NCBI RefSeq assembly: GCF_014279595.1 | Contig: NZ_CP047943.1 | Location: forward strand, 124,001 to 188,000 | Source: Synechococcus sp. RS9909 | GTDB taxonomy: Bacteria > Cyanobacteriota > Cyanobacteriia > PCC-6307 > Cyanobiaceae | Length of the DNA stretch: 64,000 nt | Direction: 5' to 3' | In this document: positions 39,844 through 44,151 of the stretch, in pieces | Layout: each line of letters opens with the position of its first letter | Position numbering within the stretch: the stretch's first letter is position 1 | Notes under the pieces: generated by a model | What the model saw: the letters and a program-made list of their open reading frames with translations, nothing else | Databases searched by the model: none | Told to the model about the DNA's origin: nothing | Program-made: the position numbers and the translations under genes

Positions 39844-41283
39844 ATGACCATCGTGGTGATCGACGACGACCCCACCGGCTCCCAGACGGTGCACAGCTGT
39901 CCGTTGTTGCTGCGCTGGGATCAGGACACGTTGCGCCGGGGCCTGCGCCATCCCTCGCCGTTGCTGTTTGTGCTCGCCAACACGCGGGCCCTCGCGCCGG
40001 CAGCCGCTGCAGCCCGCAACCGGGAGATCGTCAGCACCCTGGTGGCGGCCCTGGCGGCGGAGGCGATTCCGCCTGAAGCGGTGCAGCTGGTGAGTCGGGG
40101 TGACTCCACCCTGCGCGGCCATGGTGTGCTCGAACCCCAGGTGCTGGCGGAGGTCTGGCAGGACAAGGTTGGCCCGGTGGATGCCACCTTGCATGTGCCC
40201 GCTTTCCTGCCGGGGGGGCGCACCACGGTGGGAGGGGTCCATTTGCTGCATGGCGAGCCGGTGCATTTGTCTGCCTTTGCCCAGGACCGCGTCTTTGGCT
40301 ACAGCACCAGCGATCTGGCCGCCTGGCTGGAGGAGAAGAGCGCTGGTGCGATCGCCGCCGCCTCAGTGGCTCGGCTCGGAGGGGAGCTGCTGGATCAGGC
40401 AGACCTGGTGGGATGGTTGGCGGCTCTCAAAGGCAACCGACCGGTGGTGGTCGATGCGGAGCGGCCGGAGCAGCTCGCGGCCCTCGGCGCTGCGGTGGAA
40501 GCGCTCAGGGGGCGCAAGCGTTTTCTGTTCCGTTCCGCCGCCAGCCTGCTCAATGGCCTGGTGGATGGGGGGCGGCTGGCGCCAGGCCAACGGCCATTGG
40601 GGCCTCAACCGCGCGATGCCGCCAGCCTGGCGGCCCTGCGTCGCCGTGAGGCCACGGGCCAGGCGCTGCCAGGGCTGGTGCTGGTGGGGTCTCACGTACC
40701 CCTGGCGGACCAGCAGCTGGCGGCGCTGCTGGCGGAGGAGCGTTGCGTGGGCCTGGAGCTGCCAGTGGCCCGGATCGCCCGGGTGCTGGAGGGTGGCAGC
40801 GCCGATCTGTTGCTGGCGGATCTGGAACGGGAGTGGTTGGCGCGGTTGCGGGAGGTGCTGGCGGCTGGGCGCACGCCGGTGTTGTTCACCAGTCGGGGTG
40901 AGTTGAGTTTCGGGGGCGATGCCGCGGCCATCGAACGACGCCTGGCCTTCGGGATGGAGCTGGCCCGGTTGATGGCCCGTCTCGTGGCGGCGCTGGCTCC
41001 CCAGCTGGGCTACGTGATCAGTAAAGGCGGAATCACCACCGGCACTGTGCTGGCGGAGGGGCTGGGGCTGGAGGCGGTGCAGCTGGAGGGTCAGCTGCTG
41101 CCGGGCTTGTCGCTGGTGAGGCCCATGGGTGTGGATCCAAAGCCCATGGGTGATTGTTCTGATGCTGATCGTGATGCGGTGGCTGGGCTGCCGATCCTCA
41201 CCTTCCCAGGCAATCTCGGCGACCCGAGCACCCTGGCGGAGGCCTGGCGTTGGATGGAATGGGGCGGGGCGGGGAATGCTTGA
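39844..41283 (+). CDS. DUF1537 four-carbon acid sugar kinase family protein
   Basis: A 479-residue protein of the OtnK/DtnK family, which phosphorylates four-carbon aldonates such as threonate or erythronate. The N-terminal domain has VVIDDDPTGSQTVH, LVSRGDSTLRGH and GGRTTVGGVH. The C-terminal domain has VLVGSHVP, FTSRGEL and YVISKGGITTGTVL, with LTFPGNLGDP at the end. The ATG at 39844 fits the family. It sits between glcE and glcF on the opposite strand, suggesting a role in short hydroxy-acid metabolism, but this is inference. Confidence 0.87.
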   Translation: MTIVVIDDDPTGSQTVHSCPLLLRWDQDTLRRGLRHPSPLLFVLANTRALAPAAAAARNREIVSTLVAALAAEAIPPEAVQLVSRGDSTLRGHGVLEPQVLAEVWQDKVGPVDATLHVPAFLPGGRTTVGGVHLLHGEPVHLSAFAQDRVFGYSTSDLAAWLEEKSAGAIAAASVARLGGELLDQADLVGWLAALKGNRPVVVDAERPEQLAALGAAVEALRGRKRFLFRSAASLLNGLVDGGRLAPGQRPLGPQPRDAASLAALRRREATGQALPGLVLVGSHVPLADQQLAALLAEERCVGLELPVARIARVLEGGSADLLLADLEREWLARLREVLAAGRTPVLFTSRGELSFGGDAAAIERRLAFGMELARLMARLVAALAPQLGYVISKGGITTGTVLAEGLGLEAVQLEGQLLPGLSLVRPMGVDPKPMGDCSDADRDAVAGLPILTFPGNLGDPSTLAEAWRWMEWGGAGNA

Positions 41284-41331
41284 GGCAAAGGCTGCGGCTT
41301 TGTTGTCTGCGAGCTCCCTCGACTCAACGCC

Positions 41332-42111
41332 ATGTCGTCACCCAACAATCCTCAAGCTCGAACTGGGCCTGAATCTGCGCGATCCAAGGCTTCTCCCGAC
41401 TGTCTCGATTCCGACAGCCTCCATTCCGACAGTGTCCATAGGTATGACGCATTGTCATACCTATGGACAGCCGAGGCATCGACAAGACCCCCCGCAACAT
41501 CAGCCGCATCAGGCCCTGCGCCGCTGGATCCTGTGGTGAGTGTGCGCGTCCGAACCACCACCTTGGCCGAGCTGGAGTGGCTCAAGCGCCGTCTCGGCAT
41601 GAATCGGAGCAACTGCATCCGGATGGCCGTTGAGCACTACCTCGCCGCCCATCGCCTGGAGTCTGTGGCCGGCGAGCAGTCGCGCCTGATTCAGGAGTTG
41701 GAGGGGTGGCCAGCTGTGGAGACAGGGCTCTGGAGTGGCGACATCGTGCGTTTGGCCACGCCGCTTCGGATCAATCGCTCCCAGACGAGCGACCTGGCCG
41801 TGGTGTTGCAGGCCAGCCCCTGGGTGGGCACCCATCCCACCCTCAGTGTTTGTCCCATGGACACCACGAGGACGATCGGCCAGGGCCTTCAACCGCGTGA
41901 AACCGTGGCGCCTCAGGTGCGCCTCTATGAACAGCCGACCCCCATGACCGATCTCCCCTTCCCCTTTTTCCTGATGTTGGATCGTGTGAGTTGGGTGGAT
42001 CGTCAGGCGGTGCTTCGGCGGCACGGGCGTCTCAGCGATCAGGCGATGCTGCGTCTGCGTTCCGCATTGATGCGCTGGTTCGCTTGTTCCCCTGGGGGGC
42101 AGTCGCTCTGA
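41332..42111 (+). CDS. Ribbon-helix-helix DNA-binding protein, probable autoregulator
   Basis: A 259-residue open frame. A CopG/Arc-like ribbon-helix-helix domain is recognisable at VVSVRVRTTTLAELEWLKR with RSNCIRMAVEHYLAAHR following. The region after it has no known motif. The first 67 residues are rich in Ser, Pro and Ala and span an exact inverted repeat. The true start may thus be a GTG at 41533 or 41536, leaving the repeat in the promoter. With the later start the protein is about 192 residues. Its 3' end overlaps convergent glcF by 73 bases. Regulation of itself or of the neighbouring genes is inference. Confidence 0.7.
   Translation: MSSPNNPQARTGPESARSKASPDCLDSDSLHSDSVHRYDALSYLWTAEASTRPPATSAASGPAPLDPVVSVRVRTTTLAELEWLKRRLGMNRSNCIRMAVEHYLAAHRLESVAGEQSRLIQELEGWPAVETGLWSGDIVRLATPLRINRSQTSDLAVVLQASPWVGTHPTLSVCPMDTTRTIGQGLQPRETVAPQVRLYEQPTPMTDLPFPFFLMLDRVSWVDRQAVLRRHGRLSDQAMLRLRSALMRWFACSPGGQSL
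41433..41469. repeat. Perfect inverted repeat, 16-bp arms with 5-base loop
   Basis: The left arm tgtccataggtatgac at 41433-41448 and the right arm gtcatacctatggaca at 41454-41469 are exact reverse complements, with gcatt between. Two copies of attccgacag lie just before it, at about 41409 and 41424. The repeat is 64 bases before the GTG at 41533 and 101 bases after the ATG at 41332. An operator for the adjacent ribbon-helix-helix protein is the leading explanation. An RNA hairpin is also possible. No T-run follows on either strand, which argues against a plain terminator. Confidence 0.9.
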
Positions 42112-43397
42112 GGCGCTGACAATCCGGCAGATCGGGCCAGCAGTTGCATCGGATGCAGGACCTCCGGACCATCGACGTCCAGATGGCGGCGCAATTGCAG
42201 GCTGCAGCCGATGTTGGCGCTCGCGATCACGCTGGCACCGGTGCCGCTCAGGTCTTGTGCCTTGATCTGGCCGAGCTCGGCCGCCTCGGCCGGCTGCACC
42301 AGGTTGTAGATGCCGGCGCTACCGCAACACACGCCCGCTTCGGTGGCCTCGCGCAGCTCCAGCTCCGGGATCGCCCGCAGCAGCTGGCGTGGCTGGGCGG
42401 CGATGCCCTGGCCATGGATCATGTGGCAGGCATCGTGATAAGCCACGGCGATCGGCAGCGGTTGCAGGGAGCGGCGGAACGCGTCTGAGAGGCCCCGGGC
42501 CGCCAGGAATTCATGCACGTCTTGCACCGGCCAAGGGAAACCTGTCTCCTCACCGGAGTCTGCGTCTGGCCCTTCAGCGAGAATCGCGTTGTAGGCCTTC
42601 ATCGTGTGACCGCAGCCGGAGGCCGCCACCAGCACCGCATCAAGGCCCTCAACTCCCGCAGCCGCCTCGAAGCTGCGGACCAGATCGCTGGCCAGTTCCC
42701 GGGTCTGTTCGAGTTGCCCCTGGTGGTGGCTCACGGCACCACAACAGCCCTGATCGGCTGGGATCACCACCTCGAATCCGTTCGCCTGGAGCACCGCCAC
42801 CGTCGCCCGATTCACATCCGGATCGAAGCAGCGCTGCACGCAGCCAAGCACCAGCCCCACCCGGCCGCGGCGTTCGCCCCGGGCCGGATTCCGCAGGGGA
42901 AAGCGATCTCTGAACCCCTCCGGGGCTAGGGGCGGTAGCAGCGCCTCCATGGCCGCCAGCTGGGGTCCGAGCCAGCGGGGCAGGCCGGCGCGGCGGGCCA
43001 GGGTCTGGAGCGGTCCTCCTGCGTAGACGCGCAGGGGGGTGAGCAGGGCGCGCAGCCGGCGCGGATAGGGGAGCACCGCCAGCAGCAGCTGGCGGAGGCT
43101 CTGCTGCCAGGGAGAGCGCAGCTCGGCCTTATTCAGCTTTGGGCGGGTCGCTTCGATCAGCTGGTCGTAGCGCACGCCGGAGGGGCAGGCGCTGACGCAG
43201 GCGAAGCAGCCCAGGCAGCTGTCGAAATGGGATGCCACGGTGGCATCGAGGCTCAGCTCGCCCGCTTCGATCGCCTTGAGGGTGTGGATGCGCCCCCGCG
43301 GTGAATCCATCTCTGTGCCCAGCACCCGGTAGCTGGCGCAGGTGGGGAGGCAGAAGCCGCAATGAATGCAGGGGTCGGTGGGGTCAGCGATCGCCAT
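42039..43397 (-). CDS. glcF: Glycolate oxidase iron-sulfur subunit GlcF
   Basis: A 452-residue protein with two 4Fe-4S ferredoxin clusters, CIHCGFCLPTC (C10-C20) and CLGCFACVSACP (C61-C71). Two CCG domains follow, around GCCGAVSHHQGQ and VCCGSAGIYN. It passes electrons from the flavin subunits GlcD and GlcE into the chain. The ATG at 43397 gives MAIADPTDPC. An upstream extension lies over the PhyH-like gene and is rejected. It overlaps that gene's 3' end by 14 bases and the ribbon-helix-helix gene by 73 bases on the other strand. Confidence 0.9.
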   Translation of the reverse strand: MAIADPTDPCIHCGFCLPTCASYRVLGTEMDSPRGRIHTLKAIEAGELSLDATVASHFDSCLGCFACVSACPSGVRYDQLIEATRPKLNKAELRSPWQQSLRQLLLAVLPYPRRLRALLTPLRVYAGGPLQTLARRAGLPRWLGPQLAAMEALLPPLAPEGFRDRFPLRNPARGERRGRVGLVLGCVQRCFDPDVNRATVAVLQANGFEVVIPADQGCCGAVSHHQGQLEQTRELASDLVRSFEAAAGVEGLDAVLVAASGCGHTMKAYNAILAEGPDADSGEETGFPWPVQDVHEFLAARGLSDAFRRSLQPLPIAVAYHDACHMIHGQGIAAQPRQLLRAIPELELREATEAGVCCGSAGIYNLVQPAEAAELGQIKAQDLSGTGASVIASANIGCSLQLRRHLDVDGPEVLHPMQLLARSAGLSAPQSDCPPGEQANQRINAERRRSIA

Positions 43398-44151
43398 GGC
43401 GCCATTGTGATGGGCTGATCCGGATTCCGGCTTGTTGCAGCCGGCGCCTGAGGGTGGTGTCGTTGCGTTCCCGCAGGCTGTTGACAACAGGAGAATGCCC
43501 GTAGCCGTGCAGCGTGGTCTGGGGATTGCACGTGAGCGGGGCTCGCAGCCAGTTCACGATCAGGGCATGGCGCACGATGGGGCTGCGATTGCTGCTGGAG
43601 GCGTGAAGGGTCCAGGGGGTGTGGACCGTGGCGTCGCCGAAGGCCATCGGTGCCGCCACGGTGGGGAACCTCTCCGGCAGGCCGATGGGCGCACTGACAG
43701 CGGCCTGGGGTTGATGCAGAAGGCAATGGCGATGGCTGCCCGCCATGAACTTGAGAGGGCTGTTCATGGCATCCATTGCCTGCAGCGGGATCCACACCGA
43801 CAGGGCCTCCAGGCTGTCGCTGGCGATGAAACGGGCGTCCTGATGCCAGGCGGTGCCGGGGTCCCCGGGGTTTCGGCTGTACAGGGTGACCGCCAGCAGT
43901 TCCAGCGGTGCTCCCTTGAGGTCGCAGGCGCGATCCAGACGCTTGAGGAGGCTGGGGGTTCGCAGCAGCCGTGCCAGGGCAGGCAGTTCATCCTGAAGAA
44001 ACCAGAGGTGTTCACCGCTCTGTCGCCAGATGGCAGCGGAGTCGATGATCCGAGGGATGAGCTCGCGCAGTTGGAGGCGTGTCGTTGGATCGAGAAATCC
44101 CGGAATGAAAACGAAACCGTCTCGGTTGAAGTGGGCTTCAGTCAGTTGCAC
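43384..44151 (-). CDS. PhyH-like Fe(II)/2-oxoglutarate dioxygenase
   Basis: A 255-residue protein of the phytanoyl-CoA dioxygenase superfamily. The metal triad is H103 and D105 in WHQDARF and probably H183 in PWTLHASSSN; R194 in SPIVRHAL would bind 2-oxoglutarate. KFMAGSHRHCLL fits the family. These enzymes hydroxylate small molecules, lipids or peptidyl groups. The natural substrate cannot be read here. It overlaps the unknown gene upstream (14 bases) and glcF downstream (14 bases), so it is in a run that starts at icd. Confidence 0.78.
   Translation of the reverse strand: MQLTEAHFNRDGFVFIPGFLDPTTRLQLRELIPRIIDSAAIWRQSGEHLWFLQDELPALARLLRTPSLLKRLDRACDLKGAPLELLAVTLYSRNPGDPGTAWHQDARFIASDSLEALSVWIPLQAMDAMNSPLKFMAGSHRHCLLHQPQAAVSAPIGLPERFPTVAAPMAFGDATVHTPWTLHASSSNRSPIVRHALIVNWLRAPLTCNPQTTLHGYGHSPVVNSLRERNDTTLRRRLQQAGIRISPSQWRHGDR

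Follow-up and report, generated by a model that had tools for sequence, protein, structure and literature searches.

The 64,000-nt stretch of Synechococcus sp. RS9909 DNA analyzed here (the window) contains a perfect 37-bp inverted repeat shortly upstream of sequence coding for a ribbon-helix-helix (RHH) domain. This raises the question of whether the palindrome is an operator, and what kind of protein would bind it. The repeat itself, its flanks, the encoded protein and related loci in other genomes were examined in turn.

The palindrome and its flanks

The following elements are referred to below:

41433..41469, no strand assigned: perfect inverted repeat, the proposed operator (37 bp; two 16-nt arms, 5-nt spacer)
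41441..41461, no strand assigned: 21-bp core GGTATGAC-GCATT-GTCATACC, with the skeleton GTNNNAC-N5-GTNNNAC common to the dyads of two-gene relatives
41396..41432, + strand: 15-nt tandem repeat of about three units, including both copies of ATTCCGACAG, directly adjoining the palindrome

The two arms (41433-41448 and 41454-41469; 16 nt each, 100% complementary, 5 nt apart) form the longest perfect inverted repeat of the window at spacers of 3-12 nt, the runner-up having arms of 11 nt. A preliminary description of this DNA had called the palindrome exact and unlikely to arise by chance, and both statements were borne out: in a control of only 60 dinucleotide shuffles of the window, the longest arms reached at most 14 nt (mean 10.35) and never 16 nt. 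The GTG that it had placed 64 bases after the palindrome is found at 41533-41535, in frame with an ATG at 41332. The two copies of ATTCCGACAG that it had seen ahead of the palindrome are members of the 15-nt tandem repeat, which counts about three units in the window and about four in a second genome of the genus, G028 (L004).

Searches of the organism's own genome (2.6 Mb) at up to two mismatches returned no match to a single arm beyond the palindrome's own arms and no second site for GTATGAC-N5-GTCATAC. An interspersed palindromic repeat, REP-like or mobile, is not supported, given this lack of further copies. Among 31 genomes of the genus, the arm occurs at up to one mismatch only in the window's genome and in G028; one-mismatch matches were also found in G303, G171 and G391 (about 220 bases of sequence each). 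An extra one-mismatch site in G028 (L014) lies inside open frames, shows no evident link and was discarded.

The region 41200-41700 contains no terminator-like site and the palindrome is not followed by a T-run, in agreement with the preliminary description, which had argued on this ground against a plain terminator; as a hairpin without a T-run, the repeat is not supported as an intrinsic terminator. No sigma-70-like promoter was found in the same region, and no TANNNT occurs on the + strand of 41284-41532, leaving the dyad of the window without an abutting -10 box.

A predicted single-chain RHH-MazF protein

The gene downstream of the palindrome is composed of the following parts:

41533..42111, + strand: fused RHH-MazF protein, 192 aa if the GTG is the start
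41332..41532, + strand: 5' part of the frame (residues 1-67), likely a leader that is not translated or else an extension free of constraint (dN/dS 0.60, GC3 0.49)
41536..41646, + strand: RHH domain, residues 69-105 (Pfam RHH_1, E 9.4e-4; aligns with the antitoxins of relatives)
41737..42081, + strand: MazF/PemK domain, residues 136-250 (Pfam PemK_toxin, 24.0 bits at a cut-off of 23.1; alignments)

The designation as a ribbon-helix-helix gene is correct as far as the RHH domain is concerned but covers only half of the gene, whose frame continues into a MazF/PemK domain. According to Pfam, the open frame 41332-42111 thus combines both domains in one chain, and since the protein is an RHH-MazF fusion, the natural frame for its interpretation is toxin-antitoxin autoregulation. 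The protein is more interesting than the palindrome. The RHH_1 score of 19.5 bits falls just under the Pfam cut-off of 20.5; a profile of the relatives' RHH sequences matches the fusion at 8.5e-27, but includes the window sequence itself. For the toxin half, a profile of the MazF parts of the window and 27 relatives matched solved MazF structures at 1.3e-6 at best, and its conserved Arg and Thr columns coincide with an Arg and a Thr in the structure displayed. Structure prediction gave two models of low quality (pLDDT 45.3 and 52.5), which were given no weight. The best Foldseek matches of the model of the fusion (pLDDT 52.5) were MazF proteins, at E 0.49 or worse. An assignment to the aCcr1 cell-cycle regulators (NCBIfam NF053762) was rejected at 27.2 bits against a cut-off of 60, and PADLOC reported 0 families.

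The MazF half departs from its relatives at two positions. In the alignments, a near-invariant Arg (relatives mostly R-P-A-V-V) corresponds to D154 of the window and a near-invariant Thr (relatives mostly C-P-L-T) to D177, i.e., the catalytic Arg (R25) and Thr (T48) of the MazF mRNA interferase are both replaced by Asp. Changes of these residues are described as crippling the enzyme (PMC7354611; PMC8634880). Because Asp occupies positions that are important in MazF enzymes, the toxin half of the fusion is predicted to be catalytically inactive. The fusion also lacks the last approximately 15 antitoxin residues, and its RHH part is joined to the start of MazF. The missing C-terminal tail (typically ...HWSEQLPDWSDWTA in the antitoxins of relatives) would, judging from its place, be the toxin-binding part.

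Translation start and comparison with the orthologue

Among the 31 genus genomes, an orthologue of the fusion was found only in G028, besides the window's own; the genus otherwise yielded matches to the MazF part, one of them in G007 and another elsewhere in G028. The G028 copy is frameshifted in MazF. Since the codons flanking the deletion still show signs of selection, this break is probably recent. A two-gene RHH-MazF system is present in G028 as well (L008, G028 C1:258831), and its dyad scores well. No such second match was obtained in the window's genome.

Selection was estimated by comparing the window with G028 outside the 50 nt that G028 lacks because of a deletion. Non-synonymous and synonymous codons number 12 and 6 in residues 1-67 (dN/dS 0.60), 0 and 7 in the RHH part (dN/dS 0.00) and 2 and 12 in the MazF part (dN/dS 0.06). 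RHH and MazF taken jointly are under purifying selection (dN/dS 0.04; 2 non-synonymous vs 19 synonymous codons), and the codon counts of residues 1-67 differ from those of the remainder (Fisher P 0.0005). GC3 is 0.49 for residues 1-67, compared to 0.86 for RHH, 0.75 for MazF and 0.80 for the upstream kinase gene. The suspicion that the N-terminus is unconserved and that the gene may start at 41533 is therefore supported, with no protein-level constraint upstream of this position and strong constraint downstream. A translation start near 41533 is plausible because residues 1-67 look unconstrained while RHH and MazF are under purifying selection. Most RHH genes of relatives also begin near the corresponding place. 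Against this start, the frame has no stop upstream of it in either genome, and the indels of 30 and 15 nt relative to G028 leave the frame intact.

The preliminary description had proposed to compare the repeat in relatives that keep the protein. This comparison rests on a single relative, G028, whose toxin half is frameshifted: the inner 21 bp of the palindrome are identical there, but each outer arm carries one change and the perfect 16-nt arms are not conserved. Both changes lie in the stem and are uncompensated, although, being A to G and T to C, they may still permit pairing of the G-U type. Since a difference at 2/37 bases is no better than the 4.1-4.2% of the adjacent coding sequence, conservation of the palindrome as such proves nothing.

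Two-gene relatives

Pairs of separate RHH and MazF genes are an established type (PMC2701414). Fifty of 400 sampled genomes of the family, own genome included, matched at E 0.001 or better. In a first set of 30 places (L005, L006, L008 and L015-L041), searched with the window's own queries, RHH and MazF were found as separate frames in 29. A second search contributed 30 loci, and profiles then replaced the window queries, giving a total of 36 distinct loci, a subset of the matched places; with the profiles, both were separate frames in all 36 relative loci examined. The RHH gene of L018 had been overlooked by the window's RHH query and was recovered by its profile. L018 and L072 denote one and the same place; in L072, a stop interrupts the MazF frame. 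The fused form was seen only in the window and G028 among the loci examined, and a pattern scan of the genome contigs gave 34 stretches, none of them a relative. In trees of the domains (midpoint-rooted, no support test), the window and G028 lie together on one long branch.

L024 looks degenerate, with RHH and MazF parts in one frame split by a stop, and may possibly represent a parallel step towards fusion or decay.

A putative operator motif shared with the two-gene relatives

The upstream regions of 28 two-gene relatives were searched for a motif by expectation-maximization with symmetry imposed, the training sequences being related to each other. A 21-bp dyad, about TGTTSAACRAATCGTTSAACA, was found upstream of the relatives' RHH start. 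It scores at least 15 in 33 of the 36 distinct loci, including all seven outside the training set (L072, L077, L086, L093, L097, L098, L099). Low scores were obtained for the apparently degenerate L024, for L015, where the locus ends just upstream, and for L039, which is unexplained. Of the 33 well-scoring relatives, 30 have a gap of 8-13 nt between the end of the dyad and the aligned RHH start, and 29 have a TANNNT (-10-like) element immediately adjoining the dyad. Dyad and TANNNT together form a promoter-operator unit characteristic of the family's two-gene RHH-MazF systems.

MazE6 is presumably an RHH protein. This antitoxin is described as binding, through beta-strand contacts, an operator of 18 bp that covers a TANNNT box (PMC9477884), and the arrangement of dyad and TANNNT in the relatives resembles such autoregulated toxin-antitoxin promoters.

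The eight most informative positions of the motif (1.34-1.66 bits; all others at most 0.88) make up the skeleton GTNNNAC-N5-GTNNNAC. In the 64-kb window, this skeleton occurs once, at 41442-41460, in register with the center of the palindrome; the expected number is 0.28, and at least one occurrence was present in 25 of 100 shuffled versions of the window. The skeleton is carried by only 0.5% of composition-shuffled arms, and the whole-motif score of the core is reached by 1.3-2.0% of random palindromes. This score is modest (43rd of 63,980 positions in a scan of the window) because the relatives have other bases at the three inner positions of each half-site. The resemblance to the dyads of relatives is one of sequence only; it covers the 8-5-8 geometry and the eight key bases and in this respect supports the interpretation of the palindrome as an operator, whereas the outer arms are changed in G028.

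In the window, 71 nt separate the end of the core from the aligned RHH start, a longer distance than most relatives show. Similar distances were found for L017 (78 nt), L023 (68 nt) and L072 (125 nt), all of which have N-terminal extensions, and L017 and L072 also have an ATG between the dyad and the domain. This likeness is given little weight because the real starts lie closer to the dyad.

In summary of the comparison with two-gene RHH antitoxin-MazF toxin operons, the window shares with them the RHH domain, the MazF/PemK domain and an upstream dyad that agrees with theirs in the eight key bases and the spacing. It differs in forming one polypeptide, in the missing antitoxin tail, in the change of the MazF Arg and Thr to Asp and in the position of the dyad, which lies 71 nt from the RHH start and has no abutting TANNNT.

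Alternative explanations

The palindrome might act as an RNA hairpin in the mRNA leader, in stability, translation control or attenuation, and not as a DNA site. Its position, 64 nt ahead of the likely start, is probably within a 5' leader, and its predicted fold is strong (-30.2 kcal/mol, z -5.9, with none of 200 shuffles equally good), as is to be expected since any such palindrome would fold well. However, there is no T-run or terminator-like site, and a known RNA family is unsupported, as the sole Rfam match in 41200-41700 has an E-value of 0.99 and lies outside the palindrome. Both G028 changes fall in the stem without compensation, though G-U type pairs are possible, and an RNA function would leave the shared operator skeleton unexplained. 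We therefore regard this possibility as rather improbable. Translation from the ATG at 41332, which would make the palindrome merely coding sequence, is compatible with an operator role and is unlikely. The frame is open in both genomes and the indels of 30 and 15 nt are multiples of three, but their lengths equally fit the 15-nt repeat, GC3 is 0.49 there compared to 0.75-0.86 elsewhere, and non-synonymous codons outnumber synonymous ones (12 vs 6) in the upstream part, as opposed to 2 vs 19 elsewhere (Fisher P 0.0005).

Binding of another regulator, whose target might for example be the upstream kinase gene or the transcript as a whole, would accommodate the inner half-site bases that are unlike the relatives' dyads and the failure to recognize a promoter beside the palindrome. 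Yet 26 of the 28 kinase-bearing genus genomes show no RHH-MazF gene beside the kinase, the arm is confined at up to one mismatch to the window's genome and G028 among the 31, and no second copy exists in the own genome, as expected of an autoregulator with one target; a foreign regulator is accordingly very unlikely. The locus could also be a decaying toxin-antitoxin relic, the palindrome being a leftover without present function. The loss of the antitoxin tail and of the catalytic residues, the frameshift in G028 and the presence of the fusion in only 2 of 31 genus genomes would fit such decay. Against it stands the dN/dS of 0.04 for RHH and MazF, with 0 and 2 non-synonymous codons, respectively, against 19 synonymous ones, which argues that the fusion protein was selected for much of the time since the window and G028 split and makes the relic a poor candidate.

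Proposed mechanism and relation to known systems

We consider it reasonably likely, if well short of certain, that the palindrome serves the downstream gene as its operator; this gene would encode a detoxified single-chain RHH-MazF protein descended from a two-gene operon. The comparison of sequences supports the operator reading, and the fused protein has probably been kept as a DNA-binding autoregulator. In this model, the genes of an RHH antitoxin-MazF toxin operon would have been fused into one frame. The RHH domain of the fusion would dimerize and bind the 21-bp core, and the outer arms may extend the binding site. Two RHH dimers might sit side by side on one face of the DNA, which is conceivable because the arm centers are 21 bp apart, about two helical turns. 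Binding to the dyad would repress transcription of the fusion gene itself, and the MazF half may serve as a dimerization or co-repressor module and not as an RNase. A parallel for such a built-in co-repressor is described for RelE, which acts in this way for RelB (PMC2812701).

What speaks for the fusion reading is the single frame, together with the missing antitoxin tail, the two Asp residues in place of Arg and Thr, purifying selection on RHH and MazF and the shared operator skeleton. Counting against the operator are the frameshift in the single orthologue, the two unpaired changes in the outer arms, the lack of an abutting -10 box, the differing inner half-site bases and the restriction of the fusion to two genomes. 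A more far-reaching version, put forward here as a tentative possibility that we think would more probably fail than hold, is that a type II operon was domesticated into a single-chain transcription factor, that its operator was enlarged to 37 bp and that the dead MazF pocket may sense nucleic acid or a ligand.

If true, an ancestral operator able to hold two dimers would have become part of a self-contained one-gene switch. The preferred reading by itself already hints that a selfish gene pair became a normal regulator of gene expression. Conversion of toxin-antitoxin loci into regulators is assumed to occur, but its intermediate steps are seldom caught. Here, one small locus combines fusion, tail loss, loss of catalytic residues and a surviving operator skeleton, with two-gene relatives available for comparison. 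The operator motif for the family's RHH-MazF systems, GTNNNAC-N5-GTNNNAC and mostly beside TANNNT, is concrete and testable.

Several known systems resemble the fusion in part. EzeT of E. coli, a zeta-type system, likewise combines toxin and antitoxin in a single chain and is thought to derive from a bicistronic operon; according to the same source, it keeps an active toxin that is quenched in cis (PMC4826407), whereas in the window the toxin site looks dead and the DNA-binding domain is kept. The fused HicA-HicB protein Slr1999 of Synechocystis 6803 also unites a toxin and an antitoxin domain but belongs to other families, and the portion of the source consulted mentions neither an operator nor loss of catalysis (PMC4963859). 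Similarly, a Phd-RelE fusion of Ralstonia eutropha carries truncations thought to abolish the enzyme; its families differ from those of the window, and operator data are not mentioned in the relevant section of the source (PMC4826407). In MtvTA, an inactive type II system, a toxin without detectable toxicity is kept in a DNA-binding regulatory complex, as proposed for the window. It differs, however, in that it consists of two proteins, is plasmid-borne and controls other genes (PMC11826091). A toxin-antitoxin survey of Synechococcus CB0101 lists a mazEF pair, with no fusion mentioned in the part of the survey consulted (PMC5498466). No report of a fused RHH-MazF protein was found among the titles listed for open-licence papers.

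Genomic neighborhood

The fusion gene is flanked by two genes:

39844..41283, + strand: upstream neighbor, a SBD_N/NBD_C sugar-acid kinase-like protein (Pfam domains)
42039..43487, - strand: convergent neighbor, a Fe-S/CCG (GlcF-like) protein whose 3' end overlaps that of the fusion gene

The convergent Fe-S/CCG protein is one that we take to be GlcF-like by name. Its gene and the fusion gene overlap by 73 nt at their 3' ends (42039-42111). Matches of relatives to this protein mostly stop 10-25 residues short of its C-terminus, and the protein may consequently be longer in the window. Of the 31 genomes of the genus, 28 have the upstream kinase, and in 21 of these 28 kinase loci the convergent GlcF-like gene was detected as well. 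The interval between the two holds the fusion gene in 2 of the 21 loci and another gene in 3, while in the remaining 16 the matches are at most about 55 nt apart. As the interval mostly lacks it, the fusion gene is an accessory insertion. In L056, L058 and L060, the interval is occupied by a different gene, glyoxalase/VOC-like by eye, the frame of which contains a stop in L058. The kinase-GlcF interval is thus a small hot spot of insertion.
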